Below are positions 3,123 through 54,547 of a stretch of DNA of 64,000 nucleotides, piece by piece. Under the pieces are notes generated by a model. That model worked only from the letters and a program-made list of their open reading frames with translations, did no database searches and was not told where the DNA came from. A program made the position numbers and the translations under genes. This DNA comes from Botryosphaeria dothidea (lineage: Eukaryota > Ascomycota > Dothideomycetes > Botryosphaeriales > Botryosphaeriaceae), in assembly GCA_011503125.2 (NCBI GenBank), contig WWBZ02000002.1, forward strand, positions 1 to 64,000, given 5' to 3'. The stretch's first letter is position 1, and every line of letters begins with the position of its first letter.

Positions 3123-3957
3123 CGTGTTATATTAGTCTAGCGTATCGTAGTTCGTTATCGTAGGGTTTCTACGGCTTCTTCTTATACCCGCTATATTCGT
3201 CTAGATTTAGTTTATTACGCCGCTTCTTTCTATTCTGCCTATTTCGGCTATACTAGGAAAGATCTTACGTCGTACGAGGCTATAGCTTCTTCCGTTAATA
3301 CGGAGTATAAGTTAGGCCTTTCTTTCTTTTCTTATCGTAGTAGCTAACTATTTCTTAGTTCGGTACTTAGATCGGGCTCGTAAGAGTTTAGAGCGCTAGC
3401 TTTAAGAGGTAGCTATAGAGATTAATTAGGACGAGGAGGCCGCTAATACTACTACTACTACTACTAATACGGCGGCTTAGGCGGCGTTAGTAGCGGCTTA
3501 GTATACTAGTCGCGTAGCGAAGCGGTTACGAACTCGGTAGTAGAAGGAGCGGCGGTTACGTTTATTACTCCGGTCCGTAGAGTAGCGCGATATAGCCCTA
3601 TTTTCTTATAAAATATAGTAGCTTAAGTAGGAGGAGCGGGTAGAGCGGGAGGCTACTATTCGAGAGAGCCGTCCTTCTTAGAACGTTTCCGAGGTTTCTA
3701 TCGAAGAGGCTATACTATATTTATTTAGCGGGTCCGGTAGTAACGTAGCGGGTACCGATAGCGTAATCTCCCGGTAGGCTCCCGTAGATTAGCTTTAGAT
3801 ATTACTAGATCCTCCTTCTAGTTTTACGTCCTAGAAGAACGCTCTAGAGCTAGACGATCTAGGTTTTATTAGTAGAAGTCCGCGAGAAGTTCTAGGTAAC
3901 TAAGATTTAGTAAGGGTTCCTAGGTATTTTCTAAGTCTTCGTAGTTTTTCTATTTAA
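3123..3957 (+). pseudogene. Antisense reading frame inside the Gypsy element, between integrase and 3' LTR
   Basis: From 3361 to 3957 one plus-strand frame (codons starting at 3361) is broken only by TAG/TAA codons that RIP can make from CAG/CAA. It closes with TAA TAA at 3952-3957. Reading through those stops gives a charged, probably coiled-coil stretch (ending ...RTRQQKERRLRLLLRSVEQRD, about 3520-3590) followed by an acidic, serine-rich tail. Upstream, about 3123-3330, another plus-strand frame has protein-like composition (rich in Tyr, Arg, Ser), so a frameshift or lost intron lies near 3335-3360. This is opposite to gag-pol. I recognise no domain. It may be an accessory antisense gene of this element family or a captured host gene fragment. 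Confidence 0.5.
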
Positions 3958-10674: not shown

Positions 10675-13600
10675 TATACTATACGTAAAAACCTAAAAAA
10701 AATATAACTATACTAAAAAATCGATTCTAAGCTACGGCGCCGGAAGAGGGCCCTAGGGACTCTTCTAGGCTTCGCGAGTTCTAAAATAGTACTTAAGATA
10801 ACTATAGCCGCGAAGTAGTTAATATAGAGAATATAGAAAGAGGCGAATAGCCTCCCCTAATAACTACCTCTACCTAGCTCTAATATACTCCTAAGAAACC
10901 GTAGAGCACCTAATATAGCGTAAAATACGTTAAGAGAGTCTTAAAAATAGTAGATACCCTTCTCTAAGCCCTATAAATATCCGCTAGCCTTTCTTTAGTC
11001 CTCTCTAGCTAGGTAAAAAATTTTCTCGATATTACTAAGATAATCTTCTAGGATTATATTACTATCTACTAGGAGGCAACTACTAAGAAGCTAGGCCTTA
11101 AGAATATTCTTAAAGAGGTCTAATAGATCTAAAAGATAGTTAACCGTATCTAGGCTATCTCTATACCTATACCTAATACTCGTAGCTAGATATAAATTAT
11201 AGTCTAAGTAGCCCCGAAGCTCCCTACCCCCCTAGCTACTACTAAACTTATCCTCTACTTCCTAGAGATAGTAAATAGATAAGAAATAGCTAAGCTCTTA
11301 AATAAGATAATTATTAGAAAGATCTAGGTAGGAAAAAGCTAGGCGTATAAGAAAGTACTTACTACTAAGAAGCTCCCTAGTAGAAACGTTAGAATCTTTA
11401 TACCGGATAAAGTAACTAGAATAGCCCTTCTCTAGGACTAGAAATAGACTATAGGACTAGAAAAAGAAGTTAGGCCTAACTAGTAGCTATACTTAGTACT
11501 AGTATATAACGTCCCTCGAGAAGAAATCGATACTATAGACCCCTAAGCTATCTAAACTATTTAGAAGTAGAACCTATCTCTATACCTAGAACTACGTATT
11601 AATAAGCTAGCCTAGCTAAAGAGAAAGCTTCTAGAGGAAAAAACTTACTCGGCTATTATTCTTAGTACTATAAACTCCGAAACCGCTAACTAGATTATTA
11701 ATAAGGGGCTTATTATTAACTTTACTATCTATATAGCGTAGTACTATAACGTAGCCTTTATAGTAACCTAGTATTTTAAGTACTAGGCCTACGGTTATAT
11801 TACTAACTATTATAAAAAGAAGGAAAAGTACGGATAGTATAGTAAGATATATAATACTAGGGACTACTCTAAGGAAAGTATATAGTACGTAAACTACTCT
11901 TAAAGGTATATAGTCTAGAATAACTTCTACCTAGCACGTAGAGCCTACTATACTAAGGCCGCCTAGGCCCGCCTAGTAGTACTAGAAAGATACTAGGAAG
12001 GACCCCTAATAACTAAAATATAGCCTTAAACTAACTAGTTAACCGTTAGACTAAGAAAGAGGATTAGAGAGAAGGAGCCGGTTAAGAGGGGACTAGGTAG
12101 GCTAAGAGACTTAAGCCGCCTCCCGCCTCCTAACTAAATAAGGTTTACCGGACTTAATAGCTTATAATACGCCTTAGAGAAGCCCGCGGGAACTCCCTCC
12201 TTATAGCCTATACTACTAGCCTCCTCGTAGCCGGATTTAGAGATAGAAGGAAGTTAATATTAGATATAGGCTCTCTCTCTATTATATAGTATAACGTCTA
12301 TAAGAGTAAGAATAGGGTAATACTTCCGCTCTTTAAGGAAGTAGACCTAAAGATCTACTATATTCTAGCTATCTAGGAACCTTAGAGAAACCCGAGGGTT
12401 AAGATAATAGTAAGATACCCTACCTATTATATAGTTTTTCCCTAGAAGAGAGTAGTAAGAACCTACTTCTTTATAAGTAAGGCTATTAGCTCCGACTCCT
12501 AGTAAGTAATAGTCTATTTATTAGATCTTATTATACTTTCCCTTATTACTAGGATATATATAATCTATATCTATAACTACTATAATCCCCCGCTAGCCTC
12601 TTATACTAGTATAGCGCTAGAAACCCTATCTCTTCTACTAGAAGTTCTTAGAAAACTAAAGGAGTATATTCTTCTAAGGGACTTTAACCTCTACCATCCT
12701 ATCTAGGGAGGTATAACCTCCCTAATATACTATATTCTAGCGGATAATCTAATTAAGATAGCTACCGTAGCTAATCTTAACCTAGCTCTTTTAAGGGGTA
12801 CTATTACTAGACGAGATAGTAGTAGCGAGAGTACTCTAGACCTTATCTTTATATTACGGTAGCTAGAGAAGAGAATTCTTAGCTATAGAGTTAGCTAGGA
12901 GCTCGAATTATCCTCTAACTACCTATCTATTCTTACTATACTTAATTTTTCTTCTACCCCCGTAGAACTACGCCTCCTAAGGCCCTAGTAGAAGAAAGTA
13001 GACTAGAAGAGAACTAATAATATACTCTAATTAAAGCTCGAATATCTTAAAGTAGCCCCTCTTAATACTAAAGTAGACTTAGATTACTTTACTATACTAC
13101 TCTAGAAGGCTATCTAAAGAATAATCTAGAAGACTATTCTAGTAGCGAGACCCTCGCCCTAGACCTCTATATAATAGATAAAGAAGTATTCGGATCTAGT
13201 ATACTAGACTAGAGTAGCTAGAAGAAAGTAGACGGCTATAGGAAGGGAGAAGAACTAGGTAGTATATTAAACTATTACTAATAGTAAGAAGAGATAGATT
13301 AGAAGAGATAGAATAAAAGTATAGCGTAGAATAGTAGCTAAGATTACTTCGGATCTATCTATACTCTAGAAGCTCTTAAAGTAGGTAAGAATAAGAGTAC
13401 TAGAACCTCTAGCCCTATCTTAGTTCCTACCCCTCTAGGGAGTAGATAAATAACTATATTACGATAACTAGTCTAAGGTAGAAATCCTTACTAACTAGTT
13501 CTTTCTACCTTCTAGGGCTACCGACCTCTTAGATCTAGATAGGTATATATACCTAGTACTAGTAGAGATTCCCTAAGACCTTACTAAAGAGTAGATCCTC

Positions 13601-16773: not shown

Positions 16774-17584
16774 ATAATAAAATCTAGTAAATAGACTATT
16801 ACTTACTAGGAGTCGGGAGTAATAGCCTTACTTATAAAGAAGTAGGTTCTTACTACTTTCTTCTAAGGAAAAACTATATAGTAGATAGAATATCTTACTA
16901 TTATCTTAATTCTTAGGTTTCTCTAGAGCTCCTAGATAGCTAGAATATAGTAGACCCTCGGGTCTACCTCTTTAAAGAACGGAAGTATTATCCTATTCTT
17001 ACTCTTATAAACGTTATACTATACGATAGAGAGGAAGTCTATATCTAATATTAACTTTCTTCTATCTCTAAATCGGGCTATAAGGGGGTTAGTAGTATAG
17101 GTTATAAGGCGGGGGGAGTTTCTATTAGCTTCTTTAAAGCGTATTATAAGCTACTAAGTTTAGTAAACCGTATTTAGTTTAGAGAAGAAGGGCGGCTTAA
17201 GTCTCTTAGCCTATCTAGTTTCCTCTTAACCGGCTTCTTCTTTCTAATTCTCTTTCTTAGTCTAACGGTTAACTAGTTAGTTTAGAGCTATATCTTAGTT
17301 ATTAAGGGCTCTTCCCGATATCTTTCTAGTACTACTAGGCGGGCCTAAGTAGTCTTAGCCTAGTAGGCTCTACGTATTAAATAGGAGCTACTTTAGACTA
17401 TATATCTTTAAAAGTAGTTTACGTACTACGTACTTTCCTTAGAATAGTTCCTAGTATTATATATCTTACTATACTATCTATACTTTTTCTTCTTTTTATA
17501 ATAGTTAGTAATATAGCCGTAGGCCTAGTACTTAAAATACTAGGTTACTATAAAGACTACGTTATAGTACTATACTATATATAT
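16774..17584 (-). mobile_element. LINE copy C, segment 2 (ORF1 end, endonuclease)
   Basis: The reverse complement aligns with about 11,740-12,540 of copy F: zinc knuckles, ORF1/ORF2 junction and the start of the endonuclease. It continues copy C after insertion E. Its own downstream half is missing here, consistent with copy B having integrated at 16,774; the remainder of C would then lie left of the window. The last 14 bases (17571-17584) are one side of the target duplication of E. Confidence 0.82.
17571..17584. repeat. Target site duplication (right side) of LINE copy E
   Basis: TATACTATATATAT recurs at 19695-19708, the other boundary of copy E. Joining the flanks across E restores continuous ORF1 sequence as in copy F near 11,735-11,745. 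Confidence 0.82.
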
Positions 17585-19694
17585 AGATAGATAGATAAAT
17601 TTATTTCTTCCCGATATAGCTCTCTTACGGGTCTATACGGGGCTAGCTATCTATAGTTATTTTATACGAGAGAGAAAATCTTTTTACCTAGTAAAAATCT
17701 CTTCTCTCTCTCTAGGTATACTATTCTATACTAGTTCTTATTTTTCCTTCTTACTAGTAGCGGCTACTATAGTAGCCCTATATTTACCTACTAAACCTAT
17801 CTCTTTAGTTCTTATTCTCGTAGTTATCCGGGTCTTAGTAGTTCTAGTAGTCCTAGTTATTCTTCTAGTTTCTCTTCCTAGTTATCTTCCTATATTAGTT
17901 TCTTTACTAGGCTAAATTACTTAAGTAGCCCTAGGCGTAAGAACTAGTCTATTACTACTTTAATCTTCTTCTTTATTAAGAGGAGGAAGTAGTAGTCCGT
18001 AGTCCCTACCCTTTAGAGTATCTATACTCTACTCTATTAAAAATAGAAGTAGAAGAGGAGGATATACTTTAGAGTTTATCTATACTAGCCGTATAGATAG
18101 ATAGAACTAGAATATTCTAGTATCTTATATCTTAAGAGGAAGTCCTCTAGTCTAATATACTCTATACGTAGTAGGGTAGCGAGTGTACTCTATAGCTTAG
18201 ATAGTTCGCTATAGATTTATCTAATTTTTAGGTTCTACTATATATTTTAGGCTACTAGCTTATCTTATCTTCCCTAGCTAGTAGACTTTATCTATCTCTT
18301 CTTCTACTTATTTCTATATATTATACGTAGCTTCGTTCGCTCCGGAAGACTCTAGTAGATAGAGAGATAGTAGTTAAGGAGTAAGTTTACCTTTTTTCTA
18401 AGTAGGATTCTTCTAGTAGAACTAGTAGCGCCTCTAGTACTTAAAGTAGCCCGAGCTATCTATTTAATACTCTAGTAAGTTTCCTCTACTACTATCGCGA
18501 CTAGGCTATCTCTAGCTCTAATAGCCTAGACTAGTACTAGTTCGTCTAGATATAGTAAAAGTAGAGAAATCCCTATCTTATACTCTAAGGTTTATATACT
18601 AGTTAACTTATACGCCCCTAAGATAGTACGTAGGTACTAGTTTTAGATCTTCTTTAGTAGCTAGATAGTTATTTTTCTCTATCCTAGGATTTCCTCTAAG
18701 ATATACTATATTCTATAGCCGTAGGTAAGAACTAGCCTTACTACGGCCGTATAGATATAACGGGCTTTAGTAAATAAGGCTTTCTAGATAGACGCCGCGA
18801 GTCTAGAGAGAGATATATACTATTTAATTATCTTAGCTCCTATTTCTCTAATATAGAGTTCCTATTTAAGCTTATTATCTACGTAGACTCCTAGAATCTT
18901 AATTATAGGCTCTAGGCATCTAGTAAATCTAGGGATACGGATCCCTACTACTATATTAAATCTCCTTAGTTTCCTTATAAAATAAATAAGGTAATACTTA
19001 TCGGGCGAGAAAGCTAACCCGTAGGTAGCTATCTAGTACTCGTAAATTTAATATACTTCCTCTAGTATTCTATAGTTCTATTCTATAGATCTACTAAAGA
19101 TTAGGATATTAGTATTATCGACGAATCTAAGAGAGAAGGTATTGCCTCTACGTAGCTATATAAGTAGATTAGAAGTAAAGAATAGGTAGAGTATTAGCGA
19201 TAGTAAGGATTTCTAGGGAATTCCGGTTAAGATCTAGTAGGAAATTATATAATTATATCTATATATAAAGTTATAGTAGGATTTAATATACCTATAACCT
19301 CTAGTCTCCTAAAGGTCTATCTAGGCCCCTACTCTAGTTTTTAGCCGCTTCTTATTACGGCCTCTATAGTTAGGGCCGGGCTAAACCCCTTCTATCTAAG
19401 TAATCCCTATTTACTCCTTAAATATATATCGCCGGCGCTCTATTCTAAAAGCTCCTAGTTATTTATTCTCGTTTACTTTAGCGTTAGTTTAGAGGCGAAT
19501 AGTCCCGTCTCTATATATACCGATACGCGTATCCGTTCTCTCGAGCTACGTAGTAGTCTCTCCGGCTAGAACGTAATCCTATCTACTATCTAAGTATACT
19601 AAGAGTTAGAGCCTAGCGAAGGGATAAGGTTCTTAGAGCTAGTAGTAGCTACTACGTACTACGCCCCGCGGGTAGCCTAGATATCGTATAGAGG
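17585..19694 (-). mobile_element. LINE copy E, internally deleted, nested in copy C
   Basis: On the minus strand the 5' part (19694-19230) matches only the distinctive 5' region of the copy at 49062 (about 50,088-50,540). The sequence then jumps at about 19,229 directly into the reverse transcriptase (equivalent to about 52,885). It ends with the family tail at 17,585-17,600. It therefore carries a deletion of about 2.3 kb that removes the rest of ORF1, the endonuclease and part of RT. It is flanked by a 14-bp target duplication and is heavily RIP-mutated. Confidence 0.85.
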
Positions 19695-48641: not shown

Positions 48642-49047
48642 GGTGTCTTGAGAAGAAATCGAAGAGGCGAGAAGAGAATTAGGACGGCAAAGCTGGAGAA
48701 GCGGGATCTGTGGGGTAGGAGAATGCGGAGGAGAGTGGGAAAGGGTTATAAACGGTGAAGAAGGGGAGTTGTGGGCTTGCGGACGAGAAGGCCCAGCTGA
48801 TGCTCGACGGCATGCCGAGGCTGTCCGCATCCAGATTAGCGCCCCGGATTGCCGATTAGTCATGCGCTTCACATGTCAAAAGTCTGGGGAAAATGTGCCT
48901 TTTCACAAGCCTACAGCCGCACTATGCCGTCACGCTCCAGAATCCGCCCGTCAGCAGCGGTCAGCACTCCGGACGACATGCTTTAACGTCGGCCCGATCA
49001 AACGTGCTGCAGTTCCTGGATTACATATCTGACGCAAAACCATGGCT
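48642..49047. promoter_or_regulatory. Remaining promoter region of the thiolase gene
   Basis: About 406 bp between the thiolase ATG and the left target duplication of the LINE. It holds a CCGAGG hexamer at 48815-48820 and no gene. Anything that lay further upstream is now 5.5 kb away because of the LINE insertion. Confidence 0.55.
48815..48820 (-). promoter_or_regulatory. CCTCGG element, candidate fatty-acid regulator site
   Basis: CCTCGG on the minus strand, about 175 bp before the thiolase start codon. CCTCGG is the known core site of the FarA/FarB fatty-acid-responsive zinc-cluster regulators of beta-oxidation genes in Aspergillus. A single 6-mer can occur by chance, so this is suggestive only. 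Confidence 0.4.
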
Positions 49048-49061
49048 TATAAGAATGTCTC
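49048..49061. repeat. Target site duplication (left) of full-length LINE copy D
   Basis: TATAAGAATGTCTC, repeated exactly at 54534-54547 directly after the LINE tail. The flanking bases differ, so the duplication is 14 bp and fixes both ends of the element. Confidence 0.95.
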
Positions 49062-49151
49062 GGCCGCGAAATCCTACTGCACGCGTCCTCGTCGCCGCGG
49101 CTGGTAATATCCATCAGAGGAGAGTCTCTGATGGGTAGCTGAGTGCAGAGG
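49062..49151 (+). ncRNA. HDV-like self-cleaving ribozyme at the LINE 5' end (predicted)
   Basis: The first 90 nt fit the nested double-pseudoknot of HDV-like ribozymes. P1: GGCCGCG (49062-49068) with CGCGGCT (49096-49102), including a G-U pair at the cleavage position. P2: CCTACTGCAC (49073-49082) with GTGCAGAGG (49143-49151), one bulged A. P3: GCG/CGC (49083-49085, 49093-49095). L3: TCCTCGT, sharing UCCUCG with HDV. P1.1: CC (49087-49088) with GG (49103-49104). P4: CCATCAGAG/CTCTGATGG (49111-49119, 49126-49134). J4/2 GTAGCTGA supplies a candidate catalytic C at 49139. Such ribozymes cut 5' of their first base, which here is the first base of the element. In R2- and RTE-type elements they are known to release the element RNA from a read-through transcript. 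Confidence 0.82.
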
Positions 49152-50185
49152 TGATGATTGGCAGTCTGCAACACGCCATTGCAGGCTGTTGGGGTGCGGC
49201 TTCGACGCGATGAAAATTTTTCATCGACGCGCCGACCGCGACCACAACCACGCTGCCTACTGCCTCCGCTTGGGCAACGCGACCATCCATCCAGGGAGGC
49301 CCATCGAGGGAAACTGGGATACGAAAACCACCCGACGTACGACTACCTGGCTCGCAGCCAGGCCCGACGCTGGCCCATCCAGCCAGCCGATGTGGACGCG
49401 CCCTAGGCGTATGACAGGACACCCTTGGGCTTGCACCGGCTCTGAGATCGCTGAGAACGCGGCGAGGGCGCAGGGGAACCTCTTTTCTGAGAACTTGTTA
49501 AGACTAACGTGTTGTAGACCCTCGGTGCGAAACCTATTAAGGCCTCGAGGCCTCCGACCGCGAAGCCCTTGTTAAGGCCCAACCTCGAGAACTCGTTAAG
49601 GCCTCTCCGAGAGAGCCGATCCGGTACGCACATAGGAGACCTAACAGAGGGTCTTAATAGGCGTGGTGCTCGCAACCTGGCACGATGCGACCGGTCGGCT
49701 CGACGAGACGGAAATATGGGCAAGCTCTGGGGAAGGGAAACACAGGCCAGCTTCGACGGCCCTCAGCGAACCTGTTAAGCGGGCGTCTAGGCGACTCAAC
49801 GGAGGGTCTTAATAGGCGTGGAGCACGCAACCTATGACGATGACACAGGCCAGCGGTAAGGGGAGGCTCTCGAGGAGTCACAGGCCAGTCGCGCAGAGAC
49901 TCAACACGTTAGAAACACAGGCCAGCTCAGGACAAGAGGGGATACAAGCTTGGTTAGTAGGAGCGGGTGGAGCAGGTCGCCCGGCGTGGGATCTAGTCCG
50001 TTACCCCTTCTGCAAGACACGGTCGGCCTGTCATGGGGAGACCCTTACAGGCAACGCGAAACGGGGACCTGGTGAGTGTAGGGTGTTGCGCCCCTGCACG
50101 ATACCTGGGCTGCCCGCGGGGCGTAGTGCGCAGCAGCCACTGCTGGCTCCGAGGACCTCACCCCTTCGCTGGGCTCTGACCCTCG
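49152..50185 (+). other. LINE D 5' leader with subrepeats
   Basis: It lies between the ribozyme fold and ORF1. It contains two identical 20-bp blocks ending AATAGGCGTGG (49647-49666 and 49802-49821) and four copies of CACAGGCCAG (49741, 49844, 49879, 49916). A short perfect hairpin GATGAAAA-T-TTTTCATC lies near 49209-49225. Subrepeats in a LINE leader may act as internal promoter or RNA structure, but that is inference. The leader is not found in copy F, whose 5' region is different. Confidence 0.6.
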
Positions 50186-50959
50186 GTGCACCTGGATGGC
50201 AGGCAGGATCACGTCCTGGCCGGAGAGACTGCTGCGTGGCTCGAGAGAACGGATGCGCGTGTCGGTATGCATAGAGACGGGACTGTTCGCCTCCAAACCA
50301 ACGCTGAAGCAAACGAGAATGAACAACTAGGAGCTTTTAGGATAGAGCGCCGGCGATGCATGCTTAAGGAGCAAACAGGGATTACTCAGGCAGGAGGGGT
50401 TTGGCCCGGCCCTGACTGTGGAGGCCGCAATGAGAAGCGGCTGAAAACTGGGGTAGGGGCCTGGATAGACCTTTGGGAGACTGGAGGTTATAGGCATGTC
50501 GAACCCTACTGCAACTTTGTACATAGATACAATTGTATGATTTCCTGCCACGAGTGCCCTAAAGAGAAGACGCAATGTGCAAACTGCAACCAAGAGCATA
50601 CGGCCTGGAGCAACTCCTGCCCAACGCGCAGAGCCCGTCAGGCTAAGGCCACCAAGGCCCGCCTGGCGGCACCAGAGAGACATAGAGGAGGCACCCCTAC
50701 GGCTAAGACACAGCCCCAAACCAACTGGTTGACGGTTGGGCCAAGGAAGAGGCCCAGAGAAGAGGAGCCGACCAAGAGAGGGCCAGGCAGGCCAAGGGAC
50801 CTAAGCCGCCCCCCGCCTCCTAACCAGATGCGGTTCACCGGACTCAACAGCTCCCAGCATGCCTCGGGGGAAGAGCCCACGAGAACTCCCGCCTCCTCGC
50901 AACCCATACCACCAACCCCCTCGCAACCTGACTTAGAAATGGAAGGAAGTCAATGTTAG
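50186..50959 (+). CDS. LINE D ORF1, Cys/His-knuckle protein (257 residues)
   Basis: Open from the ATG at 50186 to the TAG at 50957-50959. Cys/His residues are concentrated in MISCHECPKEKTQCANCNQE followed by HTAWSNSC (about residues 117-147). They match the second half of the zinc-knuckle array seen, after allowing for RIP, in copy F (about 11,770-11,940). The first knuckle of F is missing here and the upstream sequence is unrelated. A basic Arg/Lys/Pro-rich tail follows. ORF1 proteins of LINEs bind the element RNA. The true start is uncertain because the N-terminal 110 residues have no counterpart in F-type copies. The last codons overlap the ORF2 start. Confidence 0.6.
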   Translation: MHLDGRQDHVLAGETAAWLERTDARVGMHRDGTVRLQTNAEANENEQLGAFRIERRRCMLKEQTGITQAGGVWPGPDCGGRNEKRLKTGVGAWIDLWETGGYRHVEPYCNFVHRYNCMISCHECPKEKTQCANCNQEHTAWSNSCPTRRARQAKATKARLAAPERHRGGTPTAKTQPQTNWLTVGPRKRPREEEPTKRGPGRPRDLSRPPPPNQMRFTGLNSSQHASGEEPTRTPASSQPIPPTPSQPDLEMEGSQC

Positions 50960-53900
50960 ACATAAGCTCTCTCTCTATCGTGCAGTATAACGTCCATAAG
51001 AGTAAGGATAGGGTGATGCTCCCGTTCTTTAAGGAGGTTGACCCAAGGATCCACTGTATCCTGGCTATCCAGGAGCCTTGGAGGAACCCGAGGGTCAAGA
51101 CAACAGCAAGATACCCTGCCTACCACACAGTTTTCCCTTAGGAGGGAGTGGCAAGAACCTGCTTCTTTATAAGCAAGGCTATTGCCCCCGACTCCTGGTA
51201 AGCAATAGTCTACTCACCAGATCTCATCACACTATCCATTACCACTAAGACACGTACAATCTATATCCATAACTACTATAATCCCCTACCAGCCTCCCAT
51301 ACTAGTACGGCCCTAGAAACTCTATCTCTTCTCCTAGAAGCCCTTAGAAAACCAGGGGAGCATATCCTCCTAGGAGACTTTAACCTTCACTATCCTATCT
51401 GGGGGGGTATAACCGCCCTAAGACACCATACCCTTGCAGATAACCTTATCGAAATAGCTACTACAGCCAACCTTAACCTAGCCCTCCTAAGAGGCACTAT
51501 TACGAGGAGAGAGGGTAGTAGCGAGAGTACTCTAGACCTTATCTTTACCACACAGTAGCTAGAGGAGAGGATCCTTAGTTGCGGAGTCAGTCAGGAGCTT
51601 AAATCATCCTCTGACCACCTACCTATCCTTACTATACTCGATTTTTCCCTTACCCCCGCGGAACCACGCCCCCTAAGGCCCTAGTGGAAGAAAGTAGACT
51701 GGAAGAGAACTAATAATGTGCTCCAATTAAAGCTCAAACACCTTAAAGCAGCCCCTCTTGACACTAAAGCAGACCTAGATTACTTTACTATACTACTCCA
51801 GGAGGCCATCCAAAGGACAATCCAGGAGACTATCCCAGCAGCGAGACCCTCGCCCTGGGCCTCTATGCAATGGACAAAGGAGTATTCGGACCTAGTGCAC
51901 TAGGCTAGAGCAGCTAGAAGGAAGTGGATAGCCACAGGGAGGGAGGAGGACTGGGTAGTTTACCAAACTATTGCTAATAGCAAGAAGAGGCAGATCAGAA
52001 GAGACAGAATAAAAGCATGGCGCAGAATAGTAGCCGAGATAACCTTAGACTCTTCTACACTCTGGAAGCTCTTAAGGTGGGCAAGAACAAGGGCATTAGA
52101 GCCGCCAGCCCCACCCCAGTTCCCACCCCTTCAGGGAGCAGATGGACAACTACGTTACGACAACCAGTCTAAGGCGGAAATCCTCACCAACCAGTTCTTC
52201 CCCCCTCCCAGGGCCACCGACCTCTTAGATCTAGATGGGTGTATATACCCAGAGCCAGTAGAGATCCCCCAAGGCGTTACCGAAGAGCAGGTCCTCCACA
52301 CCATCAAGAAGCTTCCCCCAGACAAGGCACCAGGCCTAGACAAGATCATCAACAGGTTCCTAAAGCAATGCGCTGAGACACTAAGGGGACCCCTCACCAG
52401 GCTCTTCCAGGGATGCCTCGTACTTGGATACCACCCTAGGCAGTTCAAAAGCTCTATTACCGTAGTCCTAAGGAAACCACAGAGAGATAACTATACCAAA
52501 GCCAAGTCATTTAGACTAATTGCTTTACTTAATACGCTAGGAAAGCTACTTAAGAGGATTATAGTAGATCGGATCTCCTAGGCGACTGAAGCCTATAAAC
52601 TACTTCCCGATACATAGATAGGAGCTAGGAGAAACAGGTCAGCAGTAGCAGCTCTCGACCTACTTACGGAACAGATCTATACTATCTAGGCGCAAGATCC
52701 GGGGCTGGTAGCCTCAGTCCTTAGCCTAGACATCTCAGGGGCATACGATCATATATCCCACAAGAGACTCCTCTATAATATAAGAATGGCGAGGCTCCCC
52801 GAATGGGTAGAAAGATTCACGCACTCCTTCCTACAGGACCGGACCACTCAGCTATCTTTTAGGGACTTTACTAGCCCGCCAATCCAGACCTCAACCGGGA
52901 TTCCCCAGGGATCCTCCCTATCCCTAATCCTCTATCTATTCTTTGCCTCTAATCTACTCACATAGCTACGTAAGGGTAATACCTTCCCCCTTAGATTCGT
53001 CGACGATACTAATATCCTAGCCTTTAGTAGATCTATAGAATAAAACTATAGGATACTAGAGGGAGCATACCAAGTTTACGAGCACTGGGCAGCTACCTAC
53101 GGGTCAGCGTTCTCGCCAGACAAGTACCACCTTATCCACTTTATAAGAAAGCCGAGGAGATTCAATATGGCAGCAGATATCCGCATCCCTGGATTTGCTG
53201 GACACCCAGAGCCCACGATAAAGATCCTGGGAATCCACGTAGACAACAAGCTTAGATAGGGACCCTATATTAGGGAAACAGGAGCTAAGGCAATCAAATA
53301 GTGCATATCTCTCTCCCGACTCGCAGTATCCACCTAGGGAGCCTCATTTACTAAAGCCCGCCACATCTATACGGCCGTGGTAAGGCCAGCCCTTACTTAT
53401 GGCTGTGGAGTATAGCATGCCCCGGAGGGGACCCCAGGGTGGAGGAAAACAGCCATCCAGCCACTACAGAAGATCTAAAACCAGTGCCTACGCACCATCT
53501 CAGGAGCGTATAAGTTAACCAGCATACAAACCTTAGAGCATGAGACGGGGATTCCCCCACTCTTATTACACCTGGATAAACTAGCACTAGCCTAAACTAT
53601 TAGAGCTAGAGATGGCCCAGTTGCAGTAGTAGTAGAGGAAACTTGCTAGAGTATTAAATAGATAGCTAGGGCTACTCTGAGTGCTGGAGGTGCCGCTAGC
53701 CCAGCTAGGAGATCCCTACTCAGGAAAAAGGCAAACTCCCTCTTTCACTGCTACCCCCCTACCTACTAGAGCCTCCCAGAGCGAACAAGACTACGTATAA
53801 TATACAGGAACAAGTAGAAGGAGAGATGGATAAAGTTTACTAGCCAAGGAAGGCAAGGCAAGCTAGTAGCCCAAAGTACACAGTGGAACCCAAAAATCAG

Positions 53901-54309
53901 ACAAATCCACAGCGAACTGCCCAAGCCACAGAGCACACTCGCCACTCTACTACGTACAGAGCACATTAGACTAGAGGACTTTCTCTCCAGGCGCAAGGTG
54001 CCAGGGCACCTTAGCCCTGCCTGCCCATGCGGCTGGCATAGATAAACCCCAAAGCATATCCTCCTCTTCTGCCCCGACTTCCAACAGAGTAGGGCATAGA
54101 TGCTCCAAAAGGCAGGAACTACGGACTACTATTCCCTCCTCTCAACGAAGAAGGGGATCAAAGCAGCGACAGACTGGTTCTTACGCCTAGGGCTGCTTAA
54201 GCAATTCAGCCTAGCAAGAGAACTAATCCAGGAGGGTAACCAGGAAGAGGAACCAGGAGGACCACCAGGACCACCAGGACCACCAGGACCCGGACAACTA
54301 CGAGGATAA
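50953..54309 (+). pseudogene. LINE D ORF2 (endonuclease and reverse transcriptase), about twenty RIP-type stops
   Basis: The ORF2 ATG (50953-50955) overlaps the ORF1 stop in ATGTTAG. One frame runs 1,119 codons to the stop at 54307-54309. It holds an APE-like endonuclease (IVQYNVHKSKD near the start, LLGDFN about 51,365, SSDHLPI about 51,610) and a reverse transcriptase (STGIPQGSSLS about 52,895, catalytic FVDD about 52,995). Next is a thumb/connection region with LQKI-NQCLRTISGAYK (about 53,465), and then a terminal CPCGWH-x-CPDF Cys-His motif (about 54,025-54,080). The end is a GPPGPPGPPGPG tail. I see no RNase H motif. All stops are TAG or TAA, the first at 51139. No frameshift is needed. 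Confidence 0.85.
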
Positions 54310-54533
54310 GGACTAAAGGGATAGGTCTAGTAGGTGAATGTAGGGCTGCCACAGCAGCCGCTACCGGTAAGAAGGAAAAACAGAACTAGTATAGGATAGC
54401 ATACCTAGAGAGAGAGGAGGGGTTTTGCCAGGCGAAAAGGTTTTCCCCCTCGTATAAAATAATAATAGATAGCCAGCCCCGCATGGACCCGTAAGGGAGC
54501 TATATCGGGAAGAAATGAATTTATCTATCTATC

Positions 54534-54547
54534 TATAAGAATGTCTC
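54534..54547. repeat. Target site duplication (right) of LINE copy D
   Basis: Exact 14-base partner of 49048-49061, directly after the TTATCTATCTATC tail. Confidence 0.95.

Follow-up and report, generated by a model that had tools for sequence, protein, structure and literature searches.

The window analysed here is a 64,000-nt stretch of Botryosphaeria dothidea DNA (contig WWBZ02000002.1, positions 1 to 64,000 of the forward strand). It contains two chimeric insertions in which an apparently noncoding module is joined to a LINE, and a target-site duplication (TSD) brackets the one on the forward strand:

49048..49061, +: TSD, left copy (TATAAGAATGTCTC)
49062..49151, +: predicted HDV-like ribozyme, which would cleave between 49061 and 49062
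49062..50547, +: apparently noncoding module of 1486 nt, WEIRD-like in position, with the constant 3′ end ...GATTTCCTG
50548..54533, +: EN/RT LINE that follows the module, 5′-truncated and running from LINE ruler position ~1160 to the (TCTA)n tail; TAG codons break the frame
54534..54547, +: TSD, right copy
17582..19694, -: second chimera, RIP-mutated; its module (19694-19239) is 5′-incomplete and meets the LINE at ruler position 3490

When TAG is read as Q, the window's LINE contains the domains RVT_1 (E = 8.5e-23) and Exo_endo_phos_2 (E = 4.3e-19).

A predicted ribozyme fold at the first base of the insertion

Every helix of an HDV-like ribozyme was found within 49062-49151, pairing the bases both by hand and by script. 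The elements of the fold, all on the forward strand, are as follows:

49062..49068, +: P1 5′ strand, 7 bp with 49096-49102; G49062-U49102 is the cleavage-site pair
49073-49075, +: P2 extension, 3 bp with 49149-49151; A49076 is unpaired between the two parts of P2
49077..49082, +: P2 5′ strand, 6 bp with 49143-49148
49083..49095, +: P3 and L3; 49083-49085 pair with 49093-49095 (3 bp), and L3 is UCCUCGU
C49087-C49088 with G49103-G49104, +: P1.1
49109..49136, +: P4 hairpin, 11 bp between 49109-49119 and 49126-49136
49139, +: putative catalytic C in J4/2, unaltered in all 17 ribozyme copies

The fold agrees with what the earlier note had described in its 7-bp P1 with a G-U pair at the cleavage position, its P2 of six plus three pairs, its 3-bp P3 with an L3 beginning UCCUCG, its P1.1 formed by CC in L3 and GG after P1, and its C in J4/2. 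The claimed P4 hairpin is also present, although it has 11 bp rather than 9. As had been claimed, the TSD ends at 49061 and fixes the first base of the insertion at 49062, which is exactly where the fold starts.

In the window copy, P1, P2, P3 and P1.1 can be read from sequence and structure as a nested double pseudoknot. Calculated with an energy model that leaves out the pseudoknot costs, the half containing P1, P3 and P4 has a folding energy of -30.2 kcal/mol, as does the half containing P2, P3 and P4. P3 and P4 alone have -19.4 kcal/mol, and therefore P1 and P2 contribute about -10.8 kcal/mol each. The pseudoknot-free minimum free energy of the 90 nt is -34.9 and includes a competing helix between nt 37-41 and nt 76-80. 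This pseudoknot-free fold is only mildly stable (z = -1.75, with 10 of 200 shuffles equally good), which counts against the ribozyme.

Rfam was searched in E-value mode with 30 nt of free flank on the site; a stretch starting at 49062 would force that start. The drz-agam-1 model aligned over its whole length to exactly 49062-49151 (28.1 bits, E = 4.1e-4), and the whole HDV_ribozyme model aligned to 49060-49155 (29.7 bits, E = 0.006). The drz-agam-2-2 model scored 19 bits (E = 0.0026), but its alignment extends 5′ to the end of the given stretch; in a search of 501 nt it was the sole HDV-class model listed (24.8 bits, E = 1.7e-4, 49008-49152). Applying the curated cut-offs, Rfam gave no match anywhere in the whole window, all scores at the site being below the gathering level. 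The consensus of drz-agam-1 (RF01787), which from its name we take to be a mosquito family, also has the L3 sequence UCCUCGU. Its full-length match, at 28.1 bits versus a cut-off of 37, is a likeness of class and does not imply homology.

A generic double-pseudoknot descriptor, written after the site had been seen, scores 19 at 49062, the top of its 27 matches on both strands of the window (the next scores 14). The same descriptor matched 240 Mb of order-1 random sequence 12,884 times at any score (5.4e-5 per position) and 5 times at a score of at least 19 (2e-8 per position). Because the TSD sets the position independently, the relevant chance lies between about 2e-8 and 5e-5 per position. 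The earlier note had proposed a covariance or pattern search as a check, and its outcome is divided: the E-value alignments span whole models and the descriptor scores best at the site, but the curated cut-offs are not reached. Judged by fold and model alignment, 49062-49151 very likely belongs to the HDV-like class of self-cleaving ribozymes.

Ribozyme-bearing copies of the module share a first base

The genome searched was a single 51.7-Mb assembly of 78 contigs. A flanking gene has a top match at 98%, and among named species it matches best Macrophomina phaseolina (88%), Diplodia and Lasiodiplodia, all of the Botryosphaeriaceae. A BLAST comparison of fetched copies places a break at about nt 1486, separating the module from the sequence that follows. 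The ribozyme-core pattern, with RIP-type letters and three mismatches allowed, occurs at 17 places (0 in the reversed control), and all 17 are module starts. The pattern of the module 3′ end, with two mismatches, occurs at 25 places (control 0). The census comprises at least 27 copies, 17 of which begin exactly at nt 1; the 5′ incompleteness of the other 10 reflects either early stops or later damage. Counts of modules are lower bounds, with L024, L025 and L030 taken as one copy split by insertions. The modules of L010 and L019 are without any 3′ end that we found. By eye, LTR-type insertions lie within the module in L010, L011 and L025.

All 17 ribozyme-bearing copies share the same first base. 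From nt 1 onward their first 30 nt are 91% alike, and the 30 nt upstream of nt 1 are 31% alike on average (maximum 60%, 136 pairs). A TSD was found in 11 of the 12 ribozyme-bearing chimeras tested, each ending directly before module nt 1 and with the whole chimera lying within that one TSD, as in MINE-type elements; in L021 a TSD was sought and none was found. The TSDs of L018 and L020 were read taking module nt 1 as A, and L010, L011, L019, L022 and L025 were left out of the test because later insertions hide the 3′ end or the partner's end is unidentified. Taken together, the shared starts and the TSDs point indirectly, by way of genomic ends, to an RNA whose 5′ end would be the first base of P1.

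Considered as a coding gene, the module has stops in all three forward frames, no shared reading frame, and substitutions spread over codon positions. Its predicted fold has z = -3.7 against 60 shuffles. Searching Rfam with E-values up to 10 gave no family on the module outside the ribozyme stretch, the sole other match, leuA-Halobacteria, falling inside it, and the module's minus strand gave no ribozyme match. Among the 25 module 3′ ends found in the assembly, none belongs to a solo or source locus. A 78-bp piece (L037, G000:C29:4153226-4153303) is 94% like module nt 369-446; its surroundings are unrelated and the rest of the module is absent there. The genome has 5.8S rDNA at two places with no module match nearby, and viral contigs scanned with two exact module patterns gave 0 matches.

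The LINE and its junctions with the module

The earlier note had taken the ribozyme to be the 5′ end of a fungal LINE, and this claim does not stand. Six inspected LINE copies (L028, L029, L019, L022, L023 and the one at window position 10699) start with an A-run, after which comes the ORF1 ATG or a RIP-altered version of it, and these copies carry neither module nor ribozyme; the ribozyme pattern is found only inside the module. The LINE starts in L019 and L022 have a clear TSD, and those in L023 and at window position 10699 show some extra bases before the LINE. A LINE with a 5′ ribozyme of its own, of the R2/L1Tc type, was considered and rejected: all 17 matches to the ribozyme core in the 51.7 Mb lie in the module. 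We correct the owner of the ribozyme from the LINE to a separate, trans-captured noncoding RNA. In the LINE copies inspected, the A-run adjoins the ORF1 ATG and there is almost no 5′ UTR.

All 25 module 3′ ends found pass straight into other sequence. Twenty of them join the window's LINE at 16 positions, the LINE being 5′-truncated at most of these:

Positions 1, 626 (twice), ~1160 (the forward-strand window chimera), 1394, ~2416, ~2473, ~2806 and 2830
Positions 3183, ~3283, 3432, 3490 (three times), 3683, 3869, 4444 (twice) and 4679

For L022, junction 4444 was assigned from its likeness to L023. Together, 21 of the 25 ends lead into a LINE of the same or a related kind, and the 25 ends have 21 distinct junction types. 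The partners other than the window's LINE are these:

L035: a LINE 68% alike
L011: a sequence weakly resembling RNase H (E = 3e-4, short of the curated cut-off)
L030: a sequence RT-like by eye only, without a Pfam match
L031: from 1291 onward, a repeat that also lies upstream of the module in L026, SINE-like by eye
L018: another module, from its nt 26

The L031 partner was considered as a tRNA-derived SINE, for which ARAGORN and Rfam give no support.

One module sequence on several LINE lineages

We compared, pair by pair, the 10 chimeras (of at least 27 copies) in which the module is complete and the LINE part has been assigned, counting only transversions because RIP makes transitions uninformative. 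Nine of the 10 modules are 0 transversions apart over about 1485 nt, and the LINE parts of those chimeras are up to 22.2 transversions per kb apart. Two chimeras that share junction 3490, L013 and the one at window position 19237, have LINE parts that differ by 13 transversions and 10 gap columns in 1648. Modules free of transversions between them, on diverged LINE parts, therefore indicate that one RNA sequence was joined to several LINE lineages. The mismatch also runs the other way: the module of L014 is 13 transversions away, yet its LINE part has 0 transversions in 1693 from that of L016.

More than one module RNA sequence was captured, since 5 of the 16 5′-complete copies (L010, L011, L014, L019 and L023) differ from the window, outside the ribozyme, by 16-25 changes that are neither C>T nor G>A. 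The module of L021, by comparison with that of the window, has 307 C>T or G>A changes and none of any other type. L009 and L016 are both joined at LINE position 626 and differ by 2 transversions in 4508 nt; judged from this closeness, the pair may have been copied by descent.

RIP-type changes imitate covariation in the predicted ribozyme helices

Compared with the window sequence, the 17 ribozyme copies show 171 differences in all; 167 are C>T or G>A, and 127 of these lie at CpA or TpG. From their type and context, we infer that the changes are due to RIP. Apparent compensatory pairs occur in P2 and P4 (18-85, 19-84, 51-72 and 54-69), where one arm of the helix has CA and the opposing arm TG. 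They are useless as evidence of RNA structure because both arms are RIP targets. The compensatory changes in P1, P2 and P4 that the earlier note had named as a check consequently lend it no support, all double changes being of the RIP type. More generally, under RIP, a C-to-T change paired with a G-to-A change looks like helix covariation, and compensatory changes among genomic copies are therefore no proof of RNA structure.

The changes that are not of the RIP type number 2 distinct ones in nt 1-90 versus 54 in the other 1396 nt. With 3.5 expected in nt 1-90, there is no clear excess conservation of the ribozyme over the rest of the module. Both non-RIP changes in the ribozyme lie in P4, one altering a loop base and the other turning a U-A pair into U-G. 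C49139 is constant, which is weakly informative because it is not in a RIP context. In 12 of the 17 copies a RIP-type G-to-A change at G42 (position 49103) disrupts P1.1, and therefore most inserted copies have probably decayed and would be weak or dead as ribozymes.

Comparison with known systems

MINE of Magnaporthe grisea is described as WEIRD, a highly expressed noncoding RNA of 1.1 kb, fused to a 5′-truncated MGL LINE; it has TSDs and reused junctions, joins other partners too, and includes no solo WEIRD copy (PMC2104539). The chimeras here likewise consist of a 5′ full-length noncoding RNA (~1.1 kb there, 1.5 kb here) followed in the same orientation by a variably 5′-truncated LINE, again with TSDs, several reused junctions, further partners and a noncoding part that is never solo. 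The fungus and the LINE differ. By analogy, the module-LINE fusions are built like MINE, the WEIRD-LINE chimeras that arise in Magnaporthe by template switching. Two published WEIRD primer sites, the only two sites at which module and WEIRD were compared, do not occur in the window. The word 'ribozyme' is absent from the MINE paper (word count 0; PMC2104539), and in the open-licence literature we found no paper that connects HDV-like ribozymes with WEIRD, with MINE or with chimeras of fungal LINEs.

R2, L1Tc/ingi and related LINEs are described as carrying an HDV-like ribozyme at the 5′ end (PMC3774820, PMC4035085). As in R2 and L1Tc, the present fold starts at the first base of the insertion and its expected role is to set an RNA 5′ end; unlike in those elements, it would lie on a trans-captured RNA rather than on the LINE. 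A fungal HDV variant is characterized by three features: its cleavage pair is C-G, its P4 contains a loop E, and an extra nucleotide separates P2 from P3 (PMC5640933). The present fold has none of these three features: it has a G-U pair, a plain P4 and no extra nucleotide, which is the classical form, and what it shares with that variant is the occurrence of the HDV class in fungi.

A proposed mechanism and its alternatives

Our preferred reading, to which we give a probability of roughly 0.8, is that the 90 nt act as a self-cleaving ribozyme of the HDV-like class, with which a separate, structured noncoding RNA of ~1486 nt begins, and that LINEs captured this RNA by template jump. A precursor of the module RNA would be transcribed from a source that the searches did not find in the assembly. 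The ribozyme would then cut just 5′ of GGCCGCG and set the 5′ end of the RNA, as the fold and the shared copy ends suggest. At its other end, the RNA would carry the fixed sequence ...TTTCCTG that the copy ends display. A LINE reverse transcriptase (RT), copying LINE or other retroelement RNA at the target site, would jump onto the module RNA at its 3′ end; the constant-variable junctions and the mismatch of module and LINE lineages are the observations on which this step is based. The RT would often reach the ribozyme-made 5′ end, and the chimera would be inserted with a TSD, in keeping with the ends and TSDs observed.

The first reading of the locus merged ribozyme and LINE, and a related possibility is that the module is a true LINE 5′ UTR, with the ribozyme at the real element 5′ end as in R2 or L1Tc and with module-less LINEs and truncated chimeras as derived forms. 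L027, in which LINE nucleotide 1 follows immediately on the module 3′ end, speaks for it, as does the near-absence of a 5′ UTR in the LINE copies, which is unusual. Nevertheless, we consider it very improbable: the full-LINE junction is 1 of 25, only L009 among 40 scored LINE places (from 365 first-look candidates, with L009 as the query) lies within 3 kb of any of the 25 module 3′ ends, and one module sequence is found on diverged LINE parts, on other retroelement-like sequence and on another module. The 5′ end at GGCCGCG could instead come from an ordinary transcription start or another nuclease, the HDV-like fold being coincidental or inactive. Such a coincidence would be compatible with the lack of usable covariation, the lack of clear excess conservation of nt 1-90 and the Rfam scores under the cut-offs, but it is unlikely given a chance at a fixed position of ~2e-8 (score 19) to 5e-5 (any match), and given a full drz-agam-1 model that, with free flanks, falls on exactly the 90 nt at E = 4.1e-4.

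Two further alternatives concern where the module RNA resides and how the chimeras multiply. The module could be an extrachromosomal ribozyme RNA, satellite or viroid-like, whose sole DNA traces are LINE captures. This would fit the lack of a solo locus among 25 3′ ends, a commonest module sequence that is unchanged in many copies outside C>T and G>A (e.g. L021), and two fixed ends on a structured, apparently noncoding RNA; WEIRD, too, is reported to be without a solo copy yet highly expressed (PMC2104539). Several observations nonetheless make it doubtful. The unit boundary, ...CCTG followed by GGCCGCG, is absent at 25 3′ and 17 5′ ends, the module's minus strand has no ribozyme match, and a nuclear gene missing from the assembly accounts for the same facts. 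In such a unit, moreover, the last module base, G, would become the -1 base, and G at -1 is poor for HDV ribozymes. Chimeras might also multiply as units, by retrotransposition of a few chimeric elements and not by fresh jumps. L009 and L016, with their common junction 626 and 2 transversions in 4508 nt, and L022 and L023, with their common junction 4444, may be such products, but 21 junction types among 25 and the diverged LINE parts at junction 3490 (L013 versus window position 19237) render this improbable as a general account and disfavour it for most copies outside these two pairs.

Implications of a proposed ribozyme on a captured RNA

Our analysis separates the ribozyme from the LINE. 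If the capture of a separate ribozyme-bearing RNA is correct, there would be a physical reason why a MINE-like noncoding partner is copied to one exact 5′ base, and a first candidate activity would be suggested for the unexplained WEIRD type of RNA. The origin of module-type RNAs also becomes testable. As a long shot, WEIRD-type modules might be the traces of self-cleaving noncoding RNAs that have no chromosomal gene, are kept extrachromosomally in filamentous fungi, and enter the genome only when a LINE RT jumps onto their fixed 3′ ends.

Two details of the junctions can be added. In 19 of 25 junctions the module is followed at once by CC or CT, a likeness to, and not a test of, the GCC*A/U switching motif given for MINE (PMC2104539). 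The copy L018 (486-5782) is tripartite, consisting of a module, a second module without its first 25 nt and a truncated LINE, an arrangement that suggests two successive template jumps.
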